The notes under the pieces are model-generated. The model was not told where the DNA came from and did not search any database. It saw nothing but the letters and a program-made list of their open reading frames with translations. The position numbers and the translations under genes are program-made. DNA of 64,000 nt from Pseudomonas sp. GGS8 (GTDB taxonomy: Bacteria; Pseudomonadota; Gammaproteobacteria; Pseudomonadales; Pseudomonadaceae), in assembly GCF_024168645.1 (NCBI RefSeq), contig NZ_JALJWF010000001.1, positions 4,963,501 through 5,027,500 on the forward strand. Direction: 5' to 3'. This document shows positions 285-12,646 of the stretch, piece by piece. Positions within the stretch are counted from its first letter, which is position 1. Each line of letters opens with the position of its first letter.

Positions 285-599
285 ATGCAACGCATAAACC
301 GAACCTTCGATATCCAGCCGCTGGTGCGGGCGGATATGACTGTGCGCATCAATGGCCAAACCGTCAGCGCCGCCATCGGCGAAACCGTCCTGACGGTCAT
401 TCAATCACTGGGTATTCGCCAGGTGGCCCGTAACGATCACGATCAAATCAGCGGTGCCTATTGCGGCATGGGCGTGTGCCAATGCTGCCTGGTGAAAATC
501 GATGGCCGACACAAACGTCGCGCCTGCCAGACTATCGTGCGTGAGGGCATGAGCGTCGAAACCCGGGTTAACCGTATCGCCGGGCAGGAGGTGCTATGA
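285..599 (+). CDS. hcnA: Hydrogen cyanide synthase subunit HcnA
   Basis: Small subunit of the membrane-associated cyanide synthase, which oxidises glycine to HCN and CO2. The 104-residue protein is a [2Fe-2S] domain with Cys60, Cys65, Cys68 and Cys81 in the CGMGVCQCC...C pattern; its length matches known HcnA. The start at 285 is supported by the GGA ribosome binding site inside the Rsm hairpin. The stop overlaps the start of hcnB by 4 bases (ATGA), so translation is probably coupled. A generic opine/hydroxyproline oxidase gamma subunit is the main alternative, but the leader and the gene trio with typical Hcn lengths favour HcnA. Confidence 0.9.
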   Translation: MQRINRTFDIQPLVRADMTVRINGQTVSAAIGETVLTVIQSLGIRQVARNDHDQISGAYCGMGVCQCCLVKIDGRHKRRACQTIVREGMSVETRVNRIAGQEVL

Positions 600-2005
600 G
601 CCTGCATCCGGTGATCGTCGGCGGCGGGCCGGCGGGTATGGCCGCGGCCATTGAATTGGCGCGGCAGGGTGTGGGTTGTACCTTGCTCGAAGAAGCTTCG
701 CGCCTTGGCGGGGTGGTCTATCGCGGCCCCTTGCGCGATAACGTTCAACTGGATTACCTGGGACCACGCTATTCGGAAGCGCTGGCCAAACTGCATGGAG
801 AGTTCCAGGAGCATTCGGGCCTGATCGATGTGCATTTGAACCACCGCGTGGTCGGTGCCGAAGGTACCCGGGCGTTAGTGGTGCTGGACATCAACGAGCA
901 TTTGCAAGAGGTCGAATACCCGCAGCTGCTGTTGGCTGCCGGTTGCCATGAGCGCAGCGTACCGTTCCCCGGCTGGACCTTGCCTGGGGTGATTCTGCTG
1001 GGTGGTTTGCAACTGCAAATCAAGAGCGGCGTCGTTCAACCACAGGGGCCGGTGGTGATTGCCGGCACCGGTCCGCTGTTGCCGCTGGTGGCTTGCCAGC
1101 TACACGCTTCGGGGGTGAGCGTCGCCGGGGTTTATGAGGCATGTGCTTTCGGCAAGATCGCCCGGGAAAGCCTCGCGCTATTGAACAAGCCGCAGTTGTT
1201 CCTCGACGGTTTGAGCATGCTTGCGTACCTGAAACTGCACGGCATTCCCATGCACTATGGCTGGGGCGTGGTCGAGGCTCAAGGCGAGGAAGCGTTGAAA
1301 ACGGTGACCGTCGCGCCGTACTCCAGCACCTGGGAGCCGGACCTGAGCCGCGCCGAACGGATTTCCGCGCGAACGCTGGCGGTCGGCTATGGCTTCATTC
1401 CACGCACCCAACTCAGCCAGCAAATGGGCCTGGACCACGGCTTCAGCCATGACGGCTATCTGCGGGCCAGTGCCAATGTCTGGCAACAAAGCAGCGAACC
1501 CCACGTGCATCTGGCCGGTGACATGGGCGGGATTCGCGGTGGCGAGGCGGCCATGCTCGCGGGAAGGATCGCGGCAGTGTCGATCCTGCTGCAACGGGGT
1601 GTGCTGGACGCGGAGCTGGCGCGAGTCAGGCGTGACCGTTACCTGTCCAAACTCAAGTCGATCGTGCGCTTTCGCGCCGCCGTCGACCGTTACACCGAAC
1701 GCGGTGCCGGGCAGACTGCATTGCCGGCTGCCGACACGGTGATTTGCCGCTGCGAGCATGCGACCCGCGCCGACATCGATCGGGCGCTGAAGCAGGGGGT
1801 GCAAGACCTGGCGAGCCTGAAAATGCGCACCCGCGTGAGCATGGGCGACTGTCAGGGGCGGATGTGTGTCGGCTATTGCACCGACCGTTTGCGCGAAGCC
1901 ACCGGACGGCAAGACGTGGGCTGGTTGCGCCCGCGCTTTCCCGTCGACCCGATTCCTTTTTCAGCGTTCCAGTCTGTCGGCACGGAGGCGGCAAGCCATG
2001 AGTAA
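596..2005 (+). CDS. hcnB: Hydrogen cyanide synthase subunit HcnB
   Basis: FAD/NAD(P)-binding oxidoreductase subunit of cyanide synthase, 469 residues. The N-terminus has the dinucleotide-binding VGGGPAGMAAAIELAR motif (residues about 8-23); a second Rossmann motif (VVIAGTGPLLPL) lies near residue 155. The C-terminus carries a BFD-type [2Fe-2S] domain with CRCEH near residue 384 and DCQGRMCVGYC about 40 residues later. The gene overlaps hcnA by 4 bases and hcnC by 8 bases, so the three form one operon. Confidence 0.9.
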   Translation: MSLHPVIVGGGPAGMAAAIELARQGVGCTLLEEASRLGGVVYRGPLRDNVQLDYLGPRYSEALAKLHGEFQEHSGLIDVHLNHRVVGAEGTRALVVLDINEHLQEVEYPQLLLAAGCHERSVPFPGWTLPGVILLGGLQLQIKSGVVQPQGPVVIAGTGPLLPLVACQLHASGVSVAGVYEACAFGKIARESLALLNKPQLFLDGLSMLAYLKLHGIPMHYGWGVVEAQGEEALKTVTVAPYSSTWEPDLSRAERISARTLAVGYGFIPRTQLSQQMGLDHGFSHDGYLRASANVWQQSSEPHVHLAGDMGGIRGGEAAMLAGRIAAVSILLQRGVLDAELARVRRDRYLSKLKSIVRFRAAVDRYTERGAGQTALPAADTVICRCEHATRADIDRALKQGVQDLASLKMRTRVSMGDCQGRMCVGYCTDRLREATGRQDVGWLRPRFPVDPIPFSAFQSVGTEAASHE

Positions 2006-3257
2006 GTTCTACGACGTGATCATCGCCGGCGGCGGTGTGATCGGGGCGTCCTGCGCCTATCAGTTGTCCAAGCGCAAACACCTGAAAGTCGCGCTGATCG
2101 ACGCCAAGCGTCCCGGCAACGCGACCCGTGCTTCGGCTGGTGGCCTGTGGGCGATCGGTGAGTCGGTAGGCCTGGGCTGCGGGGTGATTTTCTTCCGCAT
2201 GATGTCGGCCAATCGCAAGCGCGAAGCCCAGGGAGCAGCGGTGGCGGTCGATGCCAGCACGCCGCACATCCTGCCGCAGTCGTTCTTCGATTTCGCCTTG
2301 CAGTCCAATGCGATGTACCCGGATTTGCACCGGGAGTTGCAGGACAATCACGGGATGGATTTCAAGTTCGAGAAGACCGGCTTGAAATTCGTGATCTATG
2401 ACGACGAGGACCGGCTCTACGCCGAGCACATCGTGGGGTGTATCCCGCACCTGGCGGATCAGGTGCGCTGGCTCGATCAAGCGGCACTGCGCGAAGCCGA
2501 GCCAAGTGTCAGCCATGAGGCGAGGGGCGCGTTGGAGTTTCTCTGCGATCATCAGGTCAGCCCGTTCCGCCTGGCCGATGCCTACACCGAAGGCGCGCGG
2601 CAAAACGGTGTGGATCTGTATTTCAACACCAACGTCACCGGCGTGCTGCACCACGGCTCACGGGTCAGCGGCGTGCAGACCACCGAAGCCGGAGTGTTCC
2701 ACTGCGATACGCTGATCAACGCCACCGGTGCCTGGGCCGCCGACCTCAGCGAGCAGGCCACCGGCATTCGCATTCCGGTGAAACCGGTGAAGGGCCAGAT
2801 CCTGCTGACCGAGCGTATGCCGAAGATGTTGCGCGGTTGCCTGACCACCAGCGACTGTTACGTGGCGCAGAAAGACAATGGCGAAATCCTGATCGGCAGC
2901 ACCACCGAAGACAAAGGTTTCGACGTGACCACCACCTACCCGGAAATCAGCAGCCTGGTGCAAGGCGCAGTGCGCTGCATTCCGGCGCTCGCCGACATCA
3001 ACCTGAAGCGTTGCTGGGCCGGGTTACGTCCTGGTTCGCCGGATGAACTGCCGATTCTCGGGCCGATGAAAGGGGTGCAGGGTTACCTGAATGCCTGCGG
3101 ACATTTCCGCACCGGGATCCTGACCTCGGCGATTACCGGCGTGTTGCTGGATAAACTGGTGAATAACGAGCCGTTGCCGCTGGATATCACACCGTTTCTG
3201 GCAGATCGGTTTGAGGTGGCGCCGCAGGTCGAATCGAAAGAGGCGCACATGGCTTGA
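1998..3257 (+). CDS. hcnC: Hydrogen cyanide synthase subunit HcnC
   Basis: DAO/DadA-family FAD amine oxidase expected to attack the glycine C-N bond. From the ATG at 1998 the protein has 419 residues, the usual HcnC length; an upstream in-frame extension to 1866 would overlap hcnB deeply and lacks homology. The N-terminal FAD motif is VIIAGGGVIGASCAYQLS and the C-terminal half has the family CWAGLRPGSPDELPILGP motif. A 10-bp hairpin follows the stop. Confidence 0.9.
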   Translation: MSKFYDVIIAGGGVIGASCAYQLSKRKHLKVALIDAKRPGNATRASAGGLWAIGESVGLGCGVIFFRMMSANRKREAQGAAVAVDASTPHILPQSFFDFALQSNAMYPDLHRELQDNHGMDFKFEKTGLKFVIYDDEDRLYAEHIVGCIPHLADQVRWLDQAALREAEPSVSHEARGALEFLCDHQVSPFRLADAYTEGARQNGVDLYFNTNVTGVLHHGSRVSGVQTTEAGVFHCDTLINATGAWAADLSEQATGIRIPVKPVKGQILLTERMPKMLRGCLTTSDCYVAQKDNGEILIGSTTEDKGFDVTTTYPEISSLVQGAVRCIPALADINLKRCWAGLRPGSPDELPILGPMKGVQGYLNACGHFRTGILTSAITGVLLDKLVNNEPLPLDITPFLADRFEVAPQVESKEAHMA

Positions 3258-3263
3258 CCGTCA

Positions 3264-3296
3264 CCTCACCACAAACGCGCGAGCGCTGTGGTGAGG
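3264..3296. terminator. Hairpin between convergent hcnC and PEP-mutase-like gene
   Basis: CCTCACCACA (3264-3273) pairs perfectly with TGTGGTGAGG (3287-3296). There is no clear T-run, so it is a candidate bidirectional stop or mRNA 3-prime stabiliser rather than a textbook terminator. Confidence 0.4.
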
Positions 3297-3308
3297 GCGC
3301 TTGTGCCG

Positions 3309-4178
3309 TCACTCTTTAACGCTCATGAATGCCTTGGCCCAAAGAATGTAATCCTCTGGCTGCGTATAGGTATGCGTCAGTTCGGTCGCGTTCAGGTCGG
3401 AGGCCTGGGTGAAGATCTGGCGTTGTTCGCGCAGGCTGTCATAAGTGGCCTTGATTGCTGCGAAGTAGGCGCCATGACCGTCGATGGTGACCCGCACGCC
3501 CAATTCGGCCAGGCGTTTGTCGTCGCGCAACAGCGGGTTGCCGTAGGTGACCAGCATCAGCGGCACGCTCAAGTGCTCGGCGATTTGCTCCAGTTGATCG
3601 AAATCCTGCACGCCGACCATGCAAATCCCGTCGGCCCCGGCTTGTTGGTAATGCTGGGTGCGGCTGATGATTTCCTGGATCGGCAGGATCCCCGCGTTGG
3701 TGCGGGCGATGATCGCCATTTCCGAATCAACCCGGGCTTCCAGCGCCGCGCGGATCTTGCCGACACCTTCGGCGACCGTGATGAGGTCAGTGGACTTGCG
3801 ACCGAATTGCGCCGGCAGCAGGGTGTCTTCAATGGTCAGGGCGGCCACGCCGGCGCGTTCGAGTTCGACGATGGTGCGCATCACATTGAGCGCGTTGCCG
3901 TAGCCGTGGTCGGCGTCGGCAATGACCGGCAATTGTGCGACACGGCCGATGCGGGTGGCCTGTTCGGCGAACTCACTGAGGGTGATCAACGCAAAATCGG
4001 GGGCGCCCAATACCTGTAACGACGCAACCGACCCCCCCAGGATTCCCACCTCAAAACCCAGGTCGGCGGCGATGCGTGCCGACATCGGGTCGAAGACCGA
4101 GGCCGTGTGGTAGCAGATGCCGGAAGCGAGGAGTTGGCGGAAATTACGGCGCAAATCTTGATGAGAAAGCCTGGACAT
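3309..4178 (-). CDS. Oxaloacetate decarboxylase, isocitrate lyase/PEP mutase family
   Basis: 289-residue (beta/alpha)8 barrel of the PEP mutase/isocitrate lyase superfamily, close in length and sequence to P. aeruginosa PA4872, an oxaloacetate decarboxylase. Visible motifs are [16 protein letters not shown] (metal/substrate loop, residues about 88-103) and IEDTLLP. It lacks the KKCGH catalytic loop of isocitrate lyase. It is the last gene of the minus-strand run but is separated from the aruG-like gene by 324 bases holding a REPIN, so co-transcription is uncertain. The start at 4178 has an upstream AAGG-rich stretch. Confidence 0.8.
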
Positions 4179-4339
4179 ACGAGTTCCACCATATAAAGGA
4201 ATGGAAGGGCTTGAGCAAAAGTGTCAACGCCGAAGGAACAAAAGGCTATCACGCGGGCGGGTAAAGGATGATGACGATTTTTTTGGCCAAGGGCACATCA
4301 TCTGGATTGACCCCAGACGTGACCTTCAGACAATCCTCC

Positions 4340-4499
4340 GTAGCAGCTGCCGAAGGCTGCGTTCGGGTGCGAAGCGCTCGCCATCAGATCAGACGTCATG
4401 CAGAAATCAGTGTTCAGTCCGAAAAACTGAATGGGCCGGTGTTACAACTGCTAAGTCCGAACGCGGCCCGAGCCGAACGCAGGCTTCGCCAGCGGCTAC
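4340..4499. repeat. Inverted pair of REP elements (REPIN)
   Basis: A REP of the GTAGCAGCTGCCGAAGGCTGCG type runs 4340-4366 on plus and its counterpart runs 4473-4499 inverted. The two 27-base arms differ at three places, two of which swap the bases of the internal palindrome and so keep the fold. The unit fills most of the gap 4179-4502; no gene was seen in that gap. Confidence 0.8.
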
Positions 4500-4502
4500 A
4501 GC

Positions 4503-5537
4503 TCACGCCGCCACCGCCTGCTGCTGTTGGTTGCGCAGCAGTACCGCACGGACCGAGCTGCCGGGTTGCAATTGCAGGCGTTTGGCGGTGAGGCGGTCGA
4601 CCATCAGGCTATTGCCCGCCAGCCGCGCGCGGGCGGTGGTGATGCGGCAGTTTTCCAGGCGACGGTTGTGGATCAGCCATACCGGAGCCTGGTCGTCGGG
4701 CGTGCCGATGGCCAGCACCAAAGATTGGCTGTCGCGCACCGTGCGGATTCTCGACACCGGAGCTTCGATCACCGGGCCTGCGTCGAAGATGTCGATGTAA
4801 CCTTTATGGGCAAAGCCCTCAGCGGTGAGGATCTTCAGCGCAGGTTCGGTGTTGGGGTGGGGCTTGCCGATCACCGCTTGGGCCTGTTCGGTAAGCAAGC
4901 AGGTGTAGAGCGGCTGGCGCGGCATCAGTTCGGCGATGAACGCTTTGCTGCCCAGCCCCGACAAGTGATCGGCATGGCTGAAATCCATCTTGAAGAAGTG
5001 CCGGCCCAGGCTGTCCCAGAACGGTGAGCAGCCATGTTCGTCGGCACTGCCGCGCAGTTCGGCGATGAGCTTGTCGCCGAACAGCTGGGGAAATTCTGCA
5101 ACGAACAGCAGACGCCCCAGCGACAGCAATCGACCATTACTGCCGTAGCGTTGATCGTGTCGCAGAAACAGCGAGCAGATTTCCGATTGCCCGGTCATTT
5201 CGTTGTTGAGGAACAACGTGGGGATCTGGCGCTGAATGCCCAGGTCCGGCGATGAACTGACCGTGAGCCCGACCCGGTAGTTGTACCAGGGCTCCCGCAG
5301 ACCGACGGCCCCGATCAGGGCACTGACGCCGACCACTTGCTGATCATCGTCTTCGAGCACAAACAGGTAGTCGGCATCCGCGCGCTCGACCTGTCCGGCG
5401 AAGGTCCGCTGGGCCCAGCGCACCCGGTGGGTCAGGCGCTCTTCGTTGGCCGGCAGGGTAGTGAACCCGGGGCCGGCCCGTTGTACCAAATCCAGTAAAG
5501 CGGGCAGGTCGGTCATTTGAACCGGGCGCAAAATCAT
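4503..5537 (-). CDS. Arginine/ornithine N-succinyltransferase beta-subunit-like (AruG paralogue)
   Basis: 344-residue member of the AstA/AruG family, which transfers succinyl from succinyl-CoA to the alpha-amino group of arginine or ornithine. Family motifs visible: REPWYNYRVGLTVSSS, the GDKLIAELRG...GCSPFWDSLGRHFF stretch and the AFIAELMP and NTEPALKILTAEGF blocks. Unlike the normal ast/aru operon, no aruC, aruD, aruB or aruE lies nearby. It is 61 bases behind the alpha-like gene. The substrate may therefore differ from arginine. Confidence 0.8.
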   Translation of the reverse strand: MILRPVQMTDLPALLDLVQRAGPGFTTLPANEERLTHRVRWAQRTFAGQVERADADYLFVLEDDDQQVVGVSALIGAVGLREPWYNYRVGLTVSSSPDLGIQRQIPTLFLNNEMTGQSEICSLFLRHDQRYGSNGRLLSLGRLLFVAEFPQLFGDKLIAELRGSADEHGCSPFWDSLGRHFFKMDFSHADHLSGLGSKAFIAELMPRQPLYTCLLTEQAQAVIGKPHPNTEPALKILTAEGFAHKGYIDIFDAGPVIEAPVSRIRTVRDSQSLVLAIGTPDDQAPVWLIHNRRLENCRITTARARLAGNSLMVDRLTAKRLQLQPGSSVRAVLLRNQQQQAVAA

Positions 5538-5598
5538 GATGCAGCTCCTTCTTCGCGCCTGCTCGGGCGCTGTCGTTGGGCTCGGGGCCGGTTGCCGC

Positions 5599-6621
5599 TC
5601 ACAGGGCGATCAGCCGGATCGCACTGGCGTCGGTCACGTTCAAGGCCGCGCACATTTCGGCGCTCAAGGCCACGGGTTGGCCGGCGCGGTAGTCCAGCTC
5701 GGCGACGATGGCGCGGTAGCCCTTCAACGAATCGTTGCTCACCAGGTAACCGCCACGGGCGTCGATGGACGAGCCCGTTTGCACCGTGCCGGTCTGGCTC
5801 TGGGCGATGGAACGAATGCTTGAGGTGCGGGCGTACAGTGTCGGTCCACCGTCGAACAGGTCGATGTAGCTGTTGGTCTCGAAGCCTTCGCGCTCCAGAA
5901 TGTCGAAGGCCTCCCGGCCATCGGGGTGGATCCGGCCGATGCAATCCTGGGCAGCTTGCGACAGCATCGGCACGTAGATCGGGTATTGCGGCATCAGTTC
6001 GGCGAGGAACGTCCGGCTCTGCAGGCCGCAAAGCCGTTCGGCCTCGACGTAAGGCAAATCGAAGAAATGCTTGCCCAGCGCATCCCAGAACGGCGACTGC
6101 CCCTGTTCGTCGCTGTAACCGACGATCTCGGTGATCACCGCTTCGGCAAAACGCGCCGGGTGGGCGGCGATGAACAGCAACCGCGCCCGGGACAGCAACT
6201 CGGAAAATGGTGTGCGCTCCAGCGTCGCGTCGATATGAAAACCGCGCAGCAAAGAGTGACCGCAGAGGTCCTGGCACAACGACAACGCCGGCACCCCATG
6301 CTCGATGTTCAGCTCCCGTGAGGCGCTGGTGAAATGGCGGTTGCGCAAACTGTAGAACGGCTCGCTGAACCCAGCCGTGGCGAGCACTTCCGAGCAGCCG
6401 GCCAAACGTCGGGTTGTCAGGTTTTCCAGCACGAAGAAATAGTTCTCCGGGCCTTCGCCCTGAACGTCTTTTTCAAACGAAGCGCAGGAATCGAGAATTT
6501 TCTCCCTCAGGCGTTCGGTGTCGTCCGGCAAGGACGTGACCCCCACCAGGCTGTCGCGCGCCAGCTGCTGCAACTGGGGCAGGTCGGTTAACTCGACTGG
6601 ACGTAAGACCAGCATGGACAT
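5599..6621 (-). CDS. Arginine/ornithine N-succinyltransferase alpha-subunit-like (AruF paralogue)
   Basis: 340-residue paralogue of the downstream gene, matching AruF in order and length (LRPVELTDLPQLQQLARDS start, SDEQGQSPFWDALGKHFF centre, RTFLAELMPQYPIYVPML). AruF and AruG form a heteromeric acyltransferase in P. aeruginosa. Here it lies 113 bases downstream of an APC permease gene in a cluster headed by an RpiR regulator, suggesting that the imported amino compound or a product of it is succinylated. The start at 6621 was preferred over the methionine two codons later; both are possible. Confidence 0.8.
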   Translation of the reverse strand: MSMLVLRPVELTDLPQLQQLARDSLVGVTSLPDDTERLREKILDSCASFEKDVQGEGPENYFFVLENLTTRRLAGCSEVLATAGFSEPFYSLRNRHFTSASRELNIEHGVPALSLCQDLCGHSLLRGFHIDATLERTPFSELLSRARLLFIAAHPARFAEAVITEIVGYSDEQGQSPFWDALGKHFFDLPYVEAERLCGLQSRTFLAELMPQYPIYVPMLSQAAQDCIGRIHPDGREAFDILEREGFETNSYIDLFDGGPTLYARTSSIRSIAQSQTGTVQTGSSIDARGGYLVSNDSLKGYRAIVAELDYRAGQPVALSAEMCAALNVTDASAIRLIAL

Positions 6622-6734
6622 ACTCCTGTATCAAAGGGTTCGGCGACTTGCACCGAACCTGACTATCACTGTCGGTTTCCACGCGTTAAATCGGCGGACG
6701 CCTGAAATCGTGTCAGACGCTGCTCTTTTTCTTG

Positions 6735-8084
6735 TCAGCCATTGCTTGGGTCGGGCAGTGCCGTGCTGGCACCCAGCTTGTTGAGGAAGAACAGATAGAC
6801 CAGGCCCAGGGCAATCCAGATCAGGCCGAGTTTCTGCGCATCAACGCCCATGTTGTACATGATGGCTGCGACGATGCTGAAGCCGATGACCGGGCAGATC
6901 AGGTGACGGATGACCTGGCCGGATTGCTGCCGGCGCCAGTAGTAGTTGATCACGGTCAGGTGCAGCAGCATGAAACCGCTAAGGGCGCCGAAGTTCACCA
7001 GGGAGGTGAGGGTGTCCACCGAGTTGATGAACAGGTAGCAGATCACCAGCGACAACACCGCCACCAGATAAATGCTCACGTACGGCGTGTTGTGTTTCGG
7101 GTGCACCTTGGCCAGCACTTTTGGCAGTTTGCCGTCTCGGGCCATGCCGAACAGCAGTCGCGAAACCGCCGCTTGGGAGGTAATGGCGACCGCCACGCCC
7201 CAGGCCAGTGCGGTGGCCACGGCGGTCAGGGTGGCCAGCCAGCTGCCGGCGGCGATTTCGGCGATTTCATAGAACGCGGTGTCGGCGGACTTGAAGCCCA
7301 GGCCGGCGGCCAGGTCGGTGGCAATCCAGGTCTGCACGACGAAGATCACGCCCATGACCAGCAAGGTAATTAATGCTGCTTTGCCGACGCTGCGGCCCGG
7401 GTCGCCCTTGATCTCTTCGGCGAGGGTGGAAATGGCATCGAAACCGAGGAACGACAGCACCGCAATCGACACCGCTTGCATCAGCAGGGCGAAGTTGAAG
7501 GTTTCGGGGTTGTACAGCGGCGCCAGGGTCAGCTGGCCGTTACCGCCGCCACTGTGCAAGGCATTCCAGGCGTAGAACAGGAAAATCCCCAGCACCACCA
7601 GTTGCGCCAGCAGGAAGATGATGTTCATCCGCGCGGTGAAGGTGATGCCCCGCAGGTTGACGAAGGTGGCGCTGACCAGAAAGGCCAGGATGAAGCCGAC
7701 TTTCGGGATGTCCGGGTACAAATGATTCAGCGCCATCGCTGCGTACACGTAGAGCAGCGGTGGAATCAGCAGGTAATCGAGCAGCATCAGCCAGCCGGCA
7801 ATAAACCCGACGTGCGGGTTGAGGCCGCGTTGTGCGTAGGAATACACCGAGCCCGCCACCGGAAAGGCCCGGGCCATGCTGCCGTAACTGAGGGCGGTGA
7901 ACAGCATCGCCACCATGCCGATGATGTAGGCCAGCGGCACCATGCCGGGGGCTTCGGCGTTGACGTAACCATATACGCCGAACGGTGCGATGGGGATCAT
8001 GAAGATCATCCCGTACACCACCAGGTCGGTCAGTGACAGGCTACGTTTCAACTGCTGCTTGTAGCCGAATTCTTCAATGTCCAT
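6735..8084 (-). CDS. APC-family amino acid/amine permease
   Basis: 449-residue, very hydrophobic inner-membrane protein with about 12 predicted helices and the APC hallmark near the N-terminus (VVYGMIFMIPIAPFGVYG). The motif FLGFDAISTLAEEIKGDP around residue 235 is the conserved APC helix-6/loop signature. It should import the substrate of the surrounding amidase/ligase/acyltransferase genes. It starts 55 bases after the amidohydrolase stop. The substrate is not readable from sequence. Confidence 0.85.
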   Translation of the reverse strand: MDIEEFGYKQQLKRSLSLTDLVVYGMIFMIPIAPFGVYGYVNAEAPGMVPLAYIIGMVAMLFTALSYGSMARAFPVAGSVYSYAQRGLNPHVGFIAGWLMLLDYLLIPPLLYVYAAMALNHLYPDIPKVGFILAFLVSATFVNLRGITFTARMNIIFLLAQLVVLGIFLFYAWNALHSGGGNGQLTLAPLYNPETFNFALLMQAVSIAVLSFLGFDAISTLAEEIKGDPGRSVGKAALITLLVMGVIFVVQTWIATDLAAGLGFKSADTAFYEIAEIAAGSWLATLTAVATALAWGVAVAITSQAAVSRLLFGMARDGKLPKVLAKVHPKHNTPYVSIYLVAVLSLVICYLFINSVDTLTSLVNFGALSGFMLLHLTVINYYWRRQQSGQVIRHLICPVIGFSIVAAIMYNMGVDAQKLGLIWIALGLVYLFFLNKLGASTALPDPSNG

Positions 8085-8139
8085 GAAGCCGTTCTCCTTG
8101 ATGTGAAAGCAGCTGCACGCTGCGAGTTTGAAGCTGTTG

Positions 8140-8901
8140 CTATAGCAGCGGCGCCAGATAGTCGGTCCAGCGACTGACGTCCTCGGGCGTGCGCAGCAGA
8201 TCGTTGCGCACCTCGATCAGCACTGAGTCCAGCCCGCGTGCGTCGCCGTGAACCGGCACGGTCATGTCACTCAGCGGATCGACTTTGTACGGCTGATTAC
8301 CGGCGACTTTCAATGGATGCCGGCTCAGCCCGTCGATCACCTGCTGGGCGTATTTCCTGGCCTGCCCGTACAACACGCCGACTTCCAGCGATCGTGGCTG
8401 GCCGTAATATATCGGCGTGAAACTGTGAATCCCCACCACTCGAACCGGTTTATTTTGCTCCACACGGGCGTCAATCAAGGTTTGCAGGCGTGCATGAAAC
8501 GGTTTGAACAGGCAGTGCCGGCGGTATTCACGGGTGGCCTCATCCAGATCGCGATTGCCCGGCACCTGATAAATCTCGCTCTGCAGCGCAATGCTGTCCG
8601 ACGCATGGCGCGGGCGATTGAGGTCGATCAACAGCCGCGAATAATTGGCCGCCAGCAGGGTCGCGCCCAGTGCTTCGGCCAAACCCTCGGCCAGCGCCAG
8701 GGCGCCGATGTCCCAGGCGATGTGTTCGCGGGCGGCCGTCTCGCTCAGGCCCAGGTCATTCAACCCGGCCGGGATAAAACGACTGGCGTGTTCACACACC
8801 AGAATCAGCGGGTGCTCGGACGCTTCCCGGCTCAGGGTGTACGCAGGCTGGGTGTAGAGGCCCAGTTCGGCGGATTCAGTACAGGCGGGCATAGTGCTCA
8901 C
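8140..8901 (-). CDS. N-formylglutamate amidohydrolase family protein
   Basis: 253-residue HutG-type hydrolase (N-formylglutamate amidohydrolase fold), which cleaves N-formyl or similar amide bonds. Conserved elements: LVCEHASRFIP (metal-binding E-H), the HIAWDIGA block, RLLIDLNRPR, GIHSFTPIY and a late EVRNDLL. The gene overlaps the preceding ligase gene by 26 bases; a second ATG three codons in (8892) is an alternative start. No other hut gene is present, so the role here is probably removal of an acyl group from an intermediate other than in histidine breakdown. Confidence 0.8.
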   Translation of the reverse strand: MSTMPACTESAELGLYTQPAYTLSREASEHPLILVCEHASRFIPAGLNDLGLSETAAREHIAWDIGALALAEGLAEALGATLLAANYSRLLIDLNRPRHASDSIALQSEIYQVPGNRDLDEATREYRRHCLFKPFHARLQTLIDARVEQNKPVRVVGIHSFTPIYYGQPRSLEVGVLYGQARKYAQQVIDGLSRHPLKVAGNQPYKVDPLSDMTVPVHGDARGLDSVLIEVRNDLLRTPEDVSRWTDYLAPLL

Positions 8902-10207
8902 AGAGGTCGGCGGGCGAGAGCTGTTCCGTCAGCGTCAGTTCCTCGGTTTTCAGGGCGAAGTAGGTGTCCAGCAAGGCGCTCGGCAGGGCTTCGATCAACG
9001 CCTCGCTGTGGCGCAGGCAATCCAGTGCCCGGGACAGCGACGCGGGCAGGGCGACGATGCCACGGGCCTGGCGTTGCTCTTCGTTCAGGGAGTCAGGGAT
9101 TTCATCGGTGATCGCGTTCAACGCCAGGCGCTGCTCGATGCCCAGGCGCCCGGCGATCAGCAAGGCTGCCATGGCCAGGTGCGGGGACGCGGTGGCGTCC
9201 ATGGCGCGAAATTCCAGGTTGTACTGCTTGGCCACGGATTTGTCGCTCAGGCTGACGGTCGGGCAAATCCGCAGCGCCGCTTCGCGGTTGCGTTGGCCGA
9301 GGCAGGCGTAGGAAGCGCTCCAGTGATGGGGCTGCAAGCGTTCGTAGGAAATCGGTGTCGGCGCGGTGAACGCACAGAGTGCCGGCAAGTAATGCAGAAC
9401 GCCGGCGGCCCAATACTGGCCGAGGGTCGACAGGCCGTTGGTGGTGCCGGCGTCATACATCACCGGTTGGCCGGCCAGGTCCTGCAGGCTCACGTGCAAG
9501 TGCACGCCATTGCACACAGCGTGCTCGGCCGTCTTGGGGGCAAAACTCAGGTTGAGGCCCATTTGCCGGGCGATCTCACGGGTGATCTCGCGCACGTTCA
9601 CCGCGCGGTCGGCGGCAGCGACACCGAGGGCCGGGCGGCAGGTGATTTCGTATTGGTGTTTGCCGTATTCCGGCAGGAACATTTCCGGCTCCACACCGCC
9701 GGTTCGCAGTGCACTGAGCAGCCAGCCGCCGAATTCGGCACCCTGGCGCTGGGCTTCCAGAGAGAACGCCAGGTGTTCAGCCGCGCCGCTGTCGAGGTTG
9801 AATTCGTGTTCGAACGCGGCGTTGACCTGCAGCCCCAACTCGTCGCGATAGCGGTCCACCTCGTCGCGCAACAGCGTACGAGGGCAGGCGCCCCACGGAC
9901 GGCCATCGGTTTCGCGAATGTCGCCGTGAATGAAGTCCAGCGCCGGAGCGTTGGCATCCGGGCCGTTGTTGACGGTCACGCGGCTGCTCAAGTCGGGAAT
10001 CAACCGTAAATCCCCATAAGCGCCCCAAGGGTTGCTGGAGGCGATGATGTCTTGCGGGGTCAGGGCGCTATTGGCCGGCACCCAGCCGCAACCGGCCACT
10101 TGATAGGCATCGAGTTCGTCGGTGGGGAAGGAACGGCCGCGCGTCACGCCGATCAGGTCGGTGGTGACGATGGTGGTCATGGGCAGTGGCGACAGGCGTT
10201 CGCTCAT
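8876..10207 (-). CDS. Glutamine-synthetase-like gamma-glutamyl ligase
   Basis: 443-residue member of the glutamine synthetase superfamily (PuuA/GlnA-like). Visible catalytic-domain motifs: FEHEFNL (first Mg ligands), EYGKHQYEI, NGVHLHVSLQD (ATP/ammonium loop) and LEFRAMDATASPHLAMAALLIAG (late signature). Such enzymes in amine catabolic clusters ligate glutamate to an amine using ATP. The ATG at 10207 overlaps the hydrolase stop (ATGA), and the longer frame upstream is only the hydrolase read in another frame. The amine substrate is unknown. Confidence 0.82.
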   Translation of the reverse strand: MSERLSPLPMTTIVTTDLIGVTRGRSFPTDELDAYQVAGCGWVPANSALTPQDIIASSNPWGAYGDLRLIPDLSSRVTVNNGPDANAPALDFIHGDIRETDGRPWGACPRTLLRDEVDRYRDELGLQVNAAFEHEFNLDSGAAEHLAFSLEAQRQGAEFGGWLLSALRTGGVEPEMFLPEYGKHQYEITCRPALGVAAADRAVNVREITREIARQMGLNLSFAPKTAEHAVCNGVHLHVSLQDLAGQPVMYDAGTTNGLSTLGQYWAAGVLHYLPALCAFTAPTPISYERLQPHHWSASYACLGQRNREAALRICPTVSLSDKSVAKQYNLEFRAMDATASPHLAMAALLIAGRLGIEQRLALNAITDEIPDSLNEEQRQARGIVALPASLSRALDCLRHSEALIEALPSALLDTYFALKTEELTLTEQLSPADLCEHYARLY

Positions 10208-10848
10208 GACTGCATCTCCTGCAACCGGCCGAGCACGGTCTGGGTGTCGGTGATCCAGCAGTAACCCTTGATGGCGTTCAGGCAGGCGTGATGCCGTTGT
10301 TCGGTGTAAGTGGCGCAGGCATCTTCGACCAGCGTCACCAGGTAGCCACGGTCGGCGGCATCGCGCACGGCCATGTCGACGCATTGGTCGGTGACGATGC
10401 CGGCGATGATCAGGTGCCGTGTTTCAAGGTTGCGCAGCACGTAGTCGATGCTGGTGGAGTTGAACACCCCGGAAGAGGTCTTGGGCAACAGGATCTCGTT
10501 TTCGAGCGGCGTCAGCTCATCGATGATCCGTGCTTGCGGGCTGCCCTTGGGCAGGTGCATGTCCGAGAGTTTGTGATCCAGCGAACGGTCGCGGCCATCG
10601 GCGGTGAGGCTTTCGATGAGCGTGTGCAACACGTTTTGCCGGGCGCGGCGAAAGGCATTGAGCAGCCTGAGTTGATTGGGCACTACCTGCGTGCGGGCGC
10701 GGGTCAGGAAGTAGTCGGCATCCGGCTCGTTGAGGTGCGGGTCGAACTGCGGCTCAAGCCAGGCACGCTGCATGTCCACCAGCAACAGCGCGGTGTGATC
10801 GGCGGCAAACGGCAAGTCCCGGGGTGAATGGTGGGGGAGCGTGAACAT
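10204..10848 (-). CDS. Isochorismatase-family cysteine hydrolase
   Basis: 214-residue cysteine hydrolase of the isochorismatase/nicotinamidase superfamily. The catalytic triad is visible: Asp in LLLVDMQ (about residue 25), Lys in LPKTSSGVF (about 122) and Cys in TDQCVDMAVRDA (about 155), with the cis-peptide-type GIVTDQC context. Family members hydrolyse amides, carbamoyl compounds or enol ethers. It begins 2 bases after the RpiR gene ends and overlaps the ligase gene by 4 bases. Confidence 0.85.
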   Translation of the reverse strand: MFTLPHHSPRDLPFAADHTALLLVDMQRAWLEPQFDPHLNEPDADYFLTRARTQVVPNQLRLLNAFRRARQNVLHTLIESLTADGRDRSLDHKLSDMHLPKGSPQARIIDELTPLENEILLPKTSSGVFNSTSIDYVLRNLETRHLIIAGIVTDQCVDMAVRDAADRGYLVTLVEDACATYTEQRHHACLNAIKGYCWITDTQTVLGRLQEMQS

Positions 10849-10850
10849 CC

Positions 10851-11705
10851 TTATTTATCCTCCAGCAGGTGAGTGTCGAAGTCGGCTCGCAGGGCATCGA
10901 TGCCTTCCAGGCGATCGGCCAGATCGGGGCTGCGCAGGGTCAGGCAGGCAATCAGTGCTTCAACCTGGGCCAGCGCCGGCACCATCGAGTCGAAGGCCGA
11001 CGCCGACTCCACCGGTGCGCTGATGATCAGGTCCGCTATTTCCCGCAGCGGTGAGGCGTAGATGTCGGTGAACAGCACGACACGCGCATGTCGGCTCTTC
11101 GCGGCATTGGCAACACGCAGAGCCTGGGATTGATAGCGCCGGTAGTCGAACACCAGCACCACGTCCTGGCGTTGCAAGTCGAATAAACGGTCCGGCAATT
11201 GCGAGCTGTCTTCCAGGGCGAAACAGCCGGGCCGCAGCAGGCGCAGGTGGTTGAGCAAGCAATTGGCGAGGAAACTGCTGAAGCGGCCACCGAAGCAATG
11301 GATCTGATGGCGGGTGTCGAGCATCCATTCGACCAGAATCCGCACATCTTCGGGTTGGGTCAGCGCCTGGGTTTCTACCAATGCCCGTTGGCTGTCCGCC
11401 AGGTAGTGGCTCCAGGGATCATCTTTCTTGAGTTGGGCGCGGGGTTGCAGCAGGGTACTGGGGGAGCGCAGGCGGTGATCCATGTCACTGAGCAAGGCTT
11501 CCTGAAAGTCGGCGTAACCGCTGAACCCCAGCTTTTTTACCAGCCGCACGATGGTTGGATCGCTGACACCGGCATGTTCGGCCAAACGTGACATCGGGCC
11601 CAGTCCGTTACGCGGGTACTGGTCCAGCAAGGCACGGATGACTTTGCGTTCCGACGGCGTGAAGTCCAGGCCGGGCTCGGTGATCAGGTCTCTGAGAGGG
11701 GGCAT
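10851..11705 (-). CDS. MurR/RpiR-family transcriptional regulator
   Basis: 284-residue regulator with an N-terminal RpiR helix-turn-helix (TPSERKVIRALL...VSDPTIVRLVKKLGFSGYADFQ, residues about 16-67) and a C-terminal SIS sugar-isomerase-like sensing domain (IHCFGGRFSSFLANCL, VVLVFDYRRY, VVLFTD). It is the first gene of the minus-strand cluster and very probably controls it and itself through the palindrome at 11742-11767. Confidence 0.88.
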   Translation of the reverse strand: MPPLRDLITEPGLDFTPSERKVIRALLDQYPRNGLGPMSRLAEHAGVSDPTIVRLVKKLGFSGYADFQEALLSDMDHRLRSPSTLLQPRAQLKKDDPWSHYLADSQRALVETQALTQPEDVRILVEWMLDTRHQIHCFGGRFSSFLANCLLNHLRLLRPGCFALEDSSQLPDRLFDLQRQDVVLVFDYRRYQSQALRVANAAKSRHARVVLFTDIYASPLREIADLIISAPVESASAFDSMVPALAQVEALIACLTLRSPDLADRLEGIDALRADFDTHLLEDK

Positions 11706-11741
11706 CCGGGCTCCTGCTGGATGGGGGTGTCGGTTTCATTT

Positions 11742-11767
11742 CATAAATCGCTAAAATAGTATTTATG
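11742..11767 (-). promoter_or_regulatory. Candidate RpiR operator
   Basis: CATAAAT (11742-11748) and ATTTATG (11761-11767) form a perfect 7-bp inverted repeat with a 12-base spacer in the only AT-rich part of this intergenic region, 37 bases upstream of the RpiR start. The spacing and position fit an autoregulatory operator over the cluster promoter. The rest of the gap 11706-12073 holds the REP at 11945-11980 and no gene that I can recognise. Confidence 0.5.
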
Positions 11768-11944
11768 TAACGTGTGCTACATGTCTAGCGAATTTTTGCG
11801 CGGGTTTTCAAAGCACCAAAATGGGGCGAAGACCCCGTGCGTGCTGGGCTACGTGGATGTCGACTGACCTTGTAGGATATCGACCATAGAGGTGTGAGAT
11901 ATCGCCACTACTCGGGCATAAAATGGGCACTGCTAGCCCAAAGC

Positions 11945-11980
11945 CGTAGCAGCAGCCTCGCAGGCTCGACAGCTGCTACG
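11945..11980. repeat. REP palindrome
   Basis: CGTAGCAGC at 11945-11953 and GCTGCTACG at 11972-11980 form the outer stem of a 36-base REP-like palindrome with an inner GAG/CTC-type stem. It lies just before the histidine phosphatase gene and would fall inside any longer reading frame, which argues for the shorter start. Confidence 0.7.
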
Positions 11981-12073
11981 AGGAAGGCGCTCAGAGTGCG
12001 TTTCTTGCGGCACAATGAGCCGATTGTTTGCGGCATCGTGCCGTCCTTTATCCCATCGACAGAGAAATCCTTC

Positions 12074-12646
12074 GTGCAGGCAACCCGCTTGACCCTGATT
12101 TGCCACGCTCGAACCGTCGCACAGAAACTGGCGCGTTTTCCTACGAATGAACCAGTAGAAATGGATTGGCAATCGGCGAAGGGCTCGCGCGGTAGTCAGT
12201 TCAAACGAGCGCCACGCCTGCTCTGCGGCCCGGAACTGCGGACCCGGCAAACCGCTGAGCTGTTTGGCGACAACGTGGAGATTGTCACGGCATTGGGCGA
12301 TTGCGATTTCGGACGCTGGAAAGGCACGTCGATCGACGACCTGCAAACATCCGAACCCGAGATGCTCCAGGCCTGGCTCAGCGACCCGACGTCGGCGCCC
12401 CACGGGGGGGAATCGGTGGCGCAGCTCGGTGAGCGGGTAGCCGCGTGGTTGAAGACCCTTGAGGCGGCACCGGGGCATATTGTTGCGGTCACCCATCCGT
12501 TTGTCATTCGCGCTGCGCTGATGCAGGTATTGCAGGGCGCGGCGTTCAACCAGATCGACGTCGAACCATTGTCGGCCATCGAATTGCGGTTCAACGGTCG
12601 CTGGCGACTACGCTTGATGGGCATGGACCCTGAGGGAGCGCTTTGA
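12074..12646 (+). CDS. Histidine phosphatase family protein (CobC-like)
   Basis: 190-residue phosphoglycerate-mutase-like protein. The N-terminal catalytic RHG box is altered to CHAR in LTLICHARTVAQ (residues about 6-17), keeping the nucleophilic His and Arg. The later CGPELRTRQTAELFG and a VTHPFVIRAAL block supply the second Arg and His. The GTG at 12074 was chosen because the longer frame would have to be translated through a REP. It overlaps cobF (TGATG), so a role in cobalamin synthesis (alpha-ribazole phosphatase type) is inferred from context only. Confidence 0.75.
   Translation: MQATRLTLICHARTVAQKLARFPTNEPVEMDWQSAKGSRGSQFKRAPRLLCGPELRTRQTAELFGDNVEIVTALGDCDFGRWKGTSIDDLQTSEPEMLQAWLSDPTSAPHGGESVAQLGERVAAWLKTLEAAPGHIVAVTHPFVIRAALMQVLQGAAFNQIDVEPLSAIELRFNGRWRLRLMGMDPEGAL

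Follow-up and report, generated by a model that had tools for sequence, protein, structure and literature searches.

Comparative analysis of a Pseudomonas gene cluster joining a gamma-glutamyl ligase module to an AruF/AruG-like pair, a candidate ornithine-yielding amide or lactam catabolic operon

To our knowledge, the glutamine synthetase (GS)-like protein PA5508 (PauA7) of Pseudomonas aeruginosa PAO1 has no settled physiological substrate, despite its solved structure (Protein Data Bank ID 4hpp), and the amide/lactam racemases are known to us as biocatalysts without a natural pathway. Here we analyze a cluster of seven minus-strand genes located at positions 4503–11705 of a 64,000-nucleotide stretch of Pseudomonas sp. 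GGS8 (the window), encoding in order an RpiR-family regulator, an isochorismatase-family cysteine hydrolase (CH), a GS-like ligase, a PF05013 hydrolase of the N-formylglutamate amidohydrolase family (NFG), an APC-family permease, and an AruF-like and an AruG-like succinyltransferase subunit (together F-G). The five genes upstream of F-G are referred to as the core. The genes PA5506-PA5510 of PAO1 presumably encode the same five kinds of protein, and we know of no AruF/G or ornithine cyclodeaminase (OCD) gene beside them. The GS-like protein of the window matches PA5508 (4hpp) over its whole length with 636 bits, so the ligase, in a cluster for which the first-pass annotation could name no described route, has a relative of solved structure; the core is already known in part through PA5508, and we place the cluster within the gamma-glutamylation kind of amine catabolism. 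Our leading interpretation, which we hold tentatively and which could well prove wrong, is that the seven genes form an operon for the catabolism of a small alpha-amino amide or amino-lactam, with L-ornithine as the product in pseudomonads, ornithine delta-lactam (3-aminopiperidin-2-one) being the best guess for the substrate and ornithinamide the next.

Published data on the PAO1 genes are scattered. PA5506-PA5509 are reported to be over-expressed together in several plasmid-bearing PAO1 strains (PMC6246594), and PA5508, alone of seven pauA genes, is described as not induced by polyamines and as preferring bulky amines in vitro (PMC6478659, citing others). PA5510 is named once, in a table of mutants tested, with no phenotype given in the main text (PMC2542419). 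A study of Crc lists transcript changes of -4.03 and -2.56 and protein changes of 0.8 and 0.44 for PA5508 and PA5510, respectively (PMC6235884); a strong post-transcriptional change of these two genes would suit catabolic genes. Because both are listed there, the Crc-type motif AAYAAYAA was sought in the window, where all six matches fell outside the cluster. A search for these gene names in combination found no paper joining these genes in the literature collection covered.

Conservation of the gene order and exchange of its last two genes

Gene content, conservation, the exchange of F-G with OCD, the racemase partner in relatives and the conserved catalytic residues of CH and the ligase are all computed results. 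Genomes of GTDB were scanned with the GS gene and the best 80 of 99 relatives were kept as loci (numbered with the prefix L), all of them titled Pseudomonas and biased to close relatives; tblastn matches covering less than half of the query were dropped before counting (less than 40% in the comparison of F-G-only, racemase and ctlX-OCD loci). The same seven genes were found in the same order on one strand in 76 of the 80 loci, so that the arrangement is not due to chance. This conserved order came from the neighborhood comparison across Pseudomonas that the first-pass annotation had proposed as a check, and its description of an RpiR-headed cluster carrying an AruF/AruG-like pair was confirmed by domain profiles for all seven genes. 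Among the remaining four loci, a contig edge cuts L073 off after F, and L078, L079 and L086 have OCD after the permease instead of F-G. The complete cluster is also known from P. fluorescens FW300-N2E3 (L068). Nine genome stretches collected later duplicated DNA already present in this set of 80. Twenty more divergent core loci of the genus were also collected, 14 with F-G, two with OCD (L100 and L107) and four with neither nearby; seven of these are the same DNA as members of the 80, including both OCD cases (L100 = L086, L107 = L078), and the 13 new ones comprise nine with F-G and four with neither. The GS gene itself was detected at E <= 1e-100 in 73 of 298 genomes of the genus. A search of 323 gammaproteobacterial genomes at E <= 1e-90 returned the source genome as the sole match, and a search across 397 genomes of the phylum gave 20 matches.

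The identity of the gene replacing F-G was supported by a score of 455 bits, over nearly the full length, between the L086 protein and the OCD structures 1u7h/1x7d. Moreover, 10 of 13 loci in a second genus of the family carry OCD about 1 kb beyond the end of the permease gene, with L138, L140 and L149 lacking it there, and the L143 protein scores 567.6 bits against NF005762 (cut-off 350). As for the four Pseudomonas cores that have neither F-G nor OCD beside them, three of the genomes have OCD elsewhere (G048 and G059, in both of them beside ctlX, and G244), and none was found in the fourth (G073) at E <= 1e-60. The known substrates common to AruFG and OCD reduce to ornithine. Since F-G and OCD interchange beside the core, ornithine is the likely product, as the simplest common denominator of the exchange, and the most probable role of the F-G pair is to dispose of ornithine, not to act on some other amine. 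The early proposal that the cluster catabolizes an amine or N-acylated amino acid is supported insofar as the genes look suited to amine or amide catabolism, and has to be amended as regards the acyltransferase. In published work, the adjacency of the putative citrullinase gene ctlX to ocd or aruG was taken as evidence for an ornithine intermediate (Price et al. 2022, PMC9007349). A citrulline unit of this published kind is also present in the source genome (L007, 4513-10353), with amino-acid ABC transporter genes, ctlX (CtlX 417 bits, cut-off 334) and a single aruG, and ctlX-OCD pairs were found in L198, L199 and L201.

Both members of the F-G pair match PF04958 over the whole protein (378 bits for F, 412.6 for G) and pass the TIGR03243 subfamily (380 and 426.9 bits, cut-off 284.35). 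At a finer level, G lies above TIGR03244 (447.2 bits, cut-off 391) and below NF007770 (385.5 bits, cut-off 521), and F lies below both TIGR03245 (417 of 458.8 bits) and TIGR03244 (317.5 of 391 bits). Compared with their canonical counterparts in the source genome, F and G show 58% and 66% identity; 148 of 264 positions (F) and 169 of 260 (G) conserved in canonical copies are retained, and at 23 positions of F and 18 of G a residue other than the canonical one is fixed. A tree of 252 proteins placed the 97 cluster-type F and the 91 cluster-type G sequences in one clade each, apart from the canonical ones, with support of 1.0 and 0.95, respectively. The cluster-type F and G are separate paralogues and not recent copies. 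Profile searches detected no AruC, AruD, AruB or AruE among the seven cluster genes, in agreement with the earlier statement that no other ast/aru gene is present, and a complete aruCFGDBE operon was found elsewhere on the same chromosome (L006; B, F and G by search, C, D and E by eye). The known arginine operon was rejected as an identity for the cluster due to this complete copy, and the histidine route was rejected because NFG scores 35 bits against the HutG profile TIGR02017, whose cut-off is 278.75; both outcomes support the first-pass annotation.

To what extent F-G depends on the core can be read from the distribution of AstA open reading frames (ORFs), counted irrespective of type in 119 genomes. 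Four or more such ORFs occur in 32 of the 35 GS-positive genomes versus 10 of the 84 in which GS was not found (Fisher p about 7e-17, relatedness ignored). These ten GS-less genomes consist of six with cluster-type F-G, two with ctlX loci (L181 and L183), plus G006 and G078. In the six (L182, L187-L191), a cluster-type F, 73-87% identical to that of the window, is found with G and a gene for a PEP-mutase/methylisocitrate-lyase-like protein (PEPM; PEP, phosphoenolpyruvate) in the same place, and a cobF-like gene occupies the other flank in five of them, L190 beginning at a contig edge. No core gene was present in the stretches read at these six loci, CH and NFG having been searched there only and not genome-wide. 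F-G is thus loosely, not obligatorily, tied to the core module, being associated with it and also able to stand alone. The two ctlX loci (L181 5293-11909 and L183 7904-12220) contain ctlX, an aminotransferase gene, F and G, with AstD/AstE-like genes recognized by eye in L181; this set may be a second succinyltransferase operon, possibly serving citrulline.

Core enzymes and their racemase partner in relatives

Among the enzymes, CH differs least between the window and plasmid loci L089-L091 (64-66% identity, versus 48-50% for GS and 44-46% for NFG). Its residues D25, K123 and C156, which we take to be the Asp-Lys-Cys triad of isochorismatase-family cysteine hydrolases, are invariant in 18 aligned sequences. 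CH remains below the profiles for biuret hydrolase (NF050097, 86.4 of 370 bits) and RutB (TIGR03614, 75.5 of 377.95 bits), and the names of its best 120 relatives, of 7570 proteins, gave no functional clue. For PauA7, 12 residues that bind metal, glutamate or ADP have been listed (PMC6529630). The GS-like protein retains 10 of them, conserved in at least 98% of 148 sequences, namely E133 and E135 (PauA7 E131 and E133), E180, E187, H236, G234, R290, R334, H238 and R313; of the other two, N233 is not among the positions conserved at this level, and the numbering gave no counterpart for E322. As in PauA7, position 296 is occupied by Trp. Judged by NCBIfam cut-offs, the GS-like protein is not an ammonia ligase (TIGR00653, 169.5 of 429.15 bits; TIGR03105, 140 of 469.6 bits). 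With respect to NFG, the N-formylglutamate amidohydrolase PFL_2244, for which a fitness effect in P. protegens against F. oxysporum is reported (PMC8743541), was considered and could not be tied to this locus.

Core genes were also detected on alphaproteobacterial plasmids and chromosomes. Most of the annotated core loci there have uptake genes of ABC type, and those scanned yielded neither F, G nor OCD. The core is a module separable from F-G, with a distribution well beyond Pseudomonas. The first-pass view of ligase, acyltransferase and hydrolases as one mix applies to the ligase and the hydrolases, with F-G as a looser attachment.

In several of these relatives the core is joined by a gene for a class III pyridoxal phosphate (PLP) enzyme, which in two of them (L089 and L090) overlaps NFG by 4 nt. 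Scored against solved structures, the protein of L089 reaches 816 bits with 5m49, an entry titled just 'Aminotransferase class-III', and 813 bits with 2zuk, an alpha-amino-epsilon-caprolactam racemase. Its equivalent in L121 scores 792 bits against the amino acid amide racemase 6gio, and racemase-type genes of L192 and of L139, the latter in the pseudomonad family and placed after a run of ABC-transporter genes, reach 546 and 466 bits against 5m49. Other racemases and aminotransferases scored far lower than the amide/lactam racemases for the PLP proteins compared with solved structures, and all NCBIfam names listed for the enzyme were below their cut-offs. An assignment as ornithine aminotransferase was rejected, as the solved-structure matches place the enzyme in the amide/lactam-racemase clade. 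In the reverse search, with up to seven candidates scored per genome, the racemase was detected at E <= 1e-110 in eight of 241 alphaproteobacterial genomes, and GS or NFG lies within 5 kb in six of them (L121, L125, L192, L193, L194 and L196, not L195, whose stretch ends 2 kb past the racemase gene, nor L197). Moreover, a Klebsiella pneumoniae plasmid (L203, 3588-10290) carries CH, NFG, RpiR, GS, APC permease and racemase-type genes side by side, the core proteins being 30-45% identical to those of the window, with 25% for the permease, and the racemase-type protein scoring 392 bits against 2zuk. This was the one Klebsiella plasmid examined among 81 plasmids matching the racemase, 43 of them Klebsiella records. 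Since the core adjoins an amide/lactam racemase in relatives, this partner points towards an alpha-amino amide or lactam as the substrate.

Other gene associations were noticed in the same loci. ArgE/DapE-type deacylase genes partner the core in L091 and L132, and in L092 (8038-10299, Terrarubrum) an RpiR-like region and a GS-like ligase are annotated as one protein. A protein of 1014 residues is encoded between GS and NFG in L125 (9938-12982 of the reverse complement), and resembles a kinase-aminotransferase fusion. The core of L203 is situated about 7 kb from lacY-lacZ.

Features of the cluster and its surroundings are compiled in Table 1. The spacing of 2-26 bases or overlap ascribed to most of the cluster in the first-pass annotation is accurate for the first four genes (RpiR-CH gap of 2 nt, CH-GS overlap of 4 nt, GS-NFG overlap of 26 nt), and the later gaps are wider, of 55 nt (NFG-APC), 113 nt (APC-F) and 61 nt (F-G). 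Four consensus matches, the promoter-like site among them, fall within 3200-12100, against a chance expectation of 2.2; the site sits in a stretch that is well conserved when 122 upstream regions are aligned. The idea that an inverted repeat preceding the regulator gene is an operator was rejected, as AAAT-N9-16-ATTT repeats occur in just 36 of the 122. On the plus strand of the window, positions 285-3257 hold consecutive genes for a short 2Fe-2S-type protein, an FAD/NAD oxidoreductase and a DAO-family oxidase, a trio reminiscent of opine or hydroxyproline oxidase sets and that is complete beside the cluster only in L009 and L014 among the 80 loci.

Table 1. Coordinates of the cluster genes and associated features in the window
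Feature	Position	Strand	Remarks
RpiR-family regulator	10851..11705	-	HTH_6 + SIS (Pfam); precedes CH directly in 80/80 loci
CH, isochorismatase-family cysteine hydrolase	10204..10848	-	D25-K123-C156; near-invariant SLTxDGRDRSLDxK
GS-like gamma-glutamyl ligase (putative)	8876..10207	-	Gln-synt_N_2 + Gln-synt_C; close to PDB 4hpp (PA5508/PauA7); start ATG 10207, from sequence
NFG, PF05013 (N-formylglutamate amidohydrolase family) hydrolase	8140..8901	-	nearest solved relative 2odf (hypothetical protein Atu2144)
APC-family permease	6735..8084	-	domain/family profile match
AruF-like succinyltransferase subunit	5599..6621	-	PF04958; clade apart from canonical AruF
AruG-like succinyltransferase subunit	4503..5537	-	PF04958; clade apart from canonical AruG
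PEPM, PEP-mutase/methylisocitrate-lyase-like protein	3309..4178	-	syntenic neighbor; used as control for mere synteny
Promoter-like site TAGACA-18-AATACT	11758..11787	-	upstream of RpiR gene

A tentative pathway and the competing explanations

Ornithine lactam is our best guess for the substrate because it combines ornithine, from the F-G/OCD exchange, with an amide or lactam, from the racemase partner. In the corresponding scheme, the RpiR protein would control the operon and the permease would import the compound. The GS-like ligase would then use ATP to add a gamma-glutamyl group to the substrate amine, CH would open the amide or lactam, and NFG would take off the glutamyl group to give glutamate and ornithine. 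Finally, AruF/AruG would succinylate the ornithine, with AruC, D and E encoded elsewhere (the operon in L006) finishing the degradation; in relatives, OCD would convert ornithine to proline instead. In this scheme we infer that ornithine is produced, what class of substrate is used, and in what order the ligase, CH and NFG act. The reported preference of PA5508 for bulky amines and its lack of induction by polyamines would be as compatible with a cyclic amine as with a catecholamine. The name 3-amino-2-piperidone does occur in the literature, in many metabolomics papers by title, and its use by Pseudomonas is conjecture.

A more general form of this scheme is possible, although we regard it as rather doubtful: an alpha-amino lactam/amide route in which glutamate first tags the amine, the tag comes off once the ring or amide has been opened, and a dedicated succinyltransferase or cyclodeaminase channels the ornithine, with an amide/lactam racemase taking both mirror forms in alphaproteobacteria and on Klebsiella plasmids. 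We know of no route of this kind in print. If it were true, the alpha-amino-epsilon-caprolactam racemases would gain a natural role, and the module would also supply glutamyl ligases, amide hydrolases and racemases as matched sets. The link of PA5508 and the racemases to one module, with ornithine as the predicted product in pseudomonads, reduces an open guess to a short list of directly testable compounds.

Several observations weigh against the ornithine-yielding amide or lactam operon. Joining the ornithine and racemase clues assumes an unchanged substrate class, and in the pseudomonad loci read no racemase gene lies beside the core except in L139. The best solved relatives of CH include the ureide-acting biuret hydrolase and RutB and no lactamase, and PA5508 is reported to prefer catecholamines in vitro (PMC6478659). 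OCD directly after the permease comes down to three distinct records once the duplicates are discounted. In L143, the only locus of the second genus read in detail, a gene for an Lrp-like regulator (98 of 233 bits) stands between permease and OCD, so that OCD may be a separate unit in that genus. In addition, neither F-G nor OCD accompanies the core in three of the 13 second-genus loci and in four of the 20 divergent Pseudomonas loci (L098, L099, L101 and L106). F-G has some use without the core, since the six genomes without a detected GS gene retain it in place. PEPM follows F-G in 55 of the 80 loci and stays with it when the core is absent, so plain synteny accounts for part of the linkage.

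One rival explanation is that the core gamma-glutamylates a bulky or aromatic, catecholamine-like amine, as PA5508 does in vitro, and that F-G is a second ornithine/arginine succinyltransferase adjoining it by chance. The in vitro preference of PA5508 for bulky amines, and for catecholamines among them (PMC6478659), speaks for this explanation, as do the persistence of F-G where GS was not detected, the cores lacking both F-G and OCD, and the 113-nt gap between permease and F. We nevertheless consider it unlikely, given that no oxidase, dioxygenase or dehydrogenase is encoded among the seven genes, that F-G or OCD recurs beside the core in two genera, and that the amide-racemase partner is left unexplained.

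Another is that CH is a ureide hydrolase freeing ornithine from a carbamoylated or ureido (citrulline-like) compound, with GS and NFG recycling or protecting an intermediate. The ureide-acting relatives of CH speak for it, and the pairing with F-G or OCD copies the ctlX arrangement. This is improbable, however, as ctlX, accompanied by an aruG of its own, is present elsewhere in the genome, citrulline needs neither a ligase nor a second amide hydrolase, and CH scores far short of the cut-offs for biuret hydrolase and RutB. A Puu/Pau-type polyamine route would be in keeping with the relatedness of GS to gamma-glutamylputrescine synthetase and with one alphaproteobacterial locus in whose vicinity lie genes for an oxidoreductase, an aminotransferase and an aldehyde dehydrogenase. 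The score against the corresponding profile (NF045547, 263 bits) is nevertheless far below its cut-off of 650, the seven genes include no oxidase, aldehyde dehydrogenase or GATase-type hydrolase (PuuB, PuuC and PuuD types), and PA5508 is reported not to be induced by polyamines (PMC6478659), so that the Puu route was rejected and any route of this type is very improbable.

Comparison with described systems

The Puu and ethanolamine routes have a ligase accompanied by oxidizing enzymes. In both, and likewise in the aniline and 1-naphthylamine (NpaA1) routes, a GS-like ligase (GlnA4 for ethanolamine) puts glutamate on an amine, and in the aniline route the ligase is joined by a dioxygenase (PMC11335346, PMC6529630). 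In contrast, the cluster described here encodes no oxidizing enzyme, and its glutamyl remover would be of the PF05013 or isochorismatase type. The ctlX-ocd and ctlX-aruG citrulline units likewise pair a hydrolase gene with OCD or AruG (PMC9007349); the cluster hydrolases, however, are of an unrelated family, and the cluster has a ligase, two hydrolases, RpiR and an APC permease, ctlX being located in L007 and not beside the cluster F-G. The canonical aruCFGDBE operon shares the F and G families with the cluster, whose own F-G falls in separate clades and has no C, D, B or E gene beside it. Finally, the amide/lactam racemases (2zuk, 6gio; 5m46-5m4d) have no counterpart among the seven window genes, whereas their relatives adjoin the core in alphaproteobacteria and on a Klebsiella plasmid, which links PA5508 and these racemases to one conserved module with a predicted ornithine product in pseudomonads.

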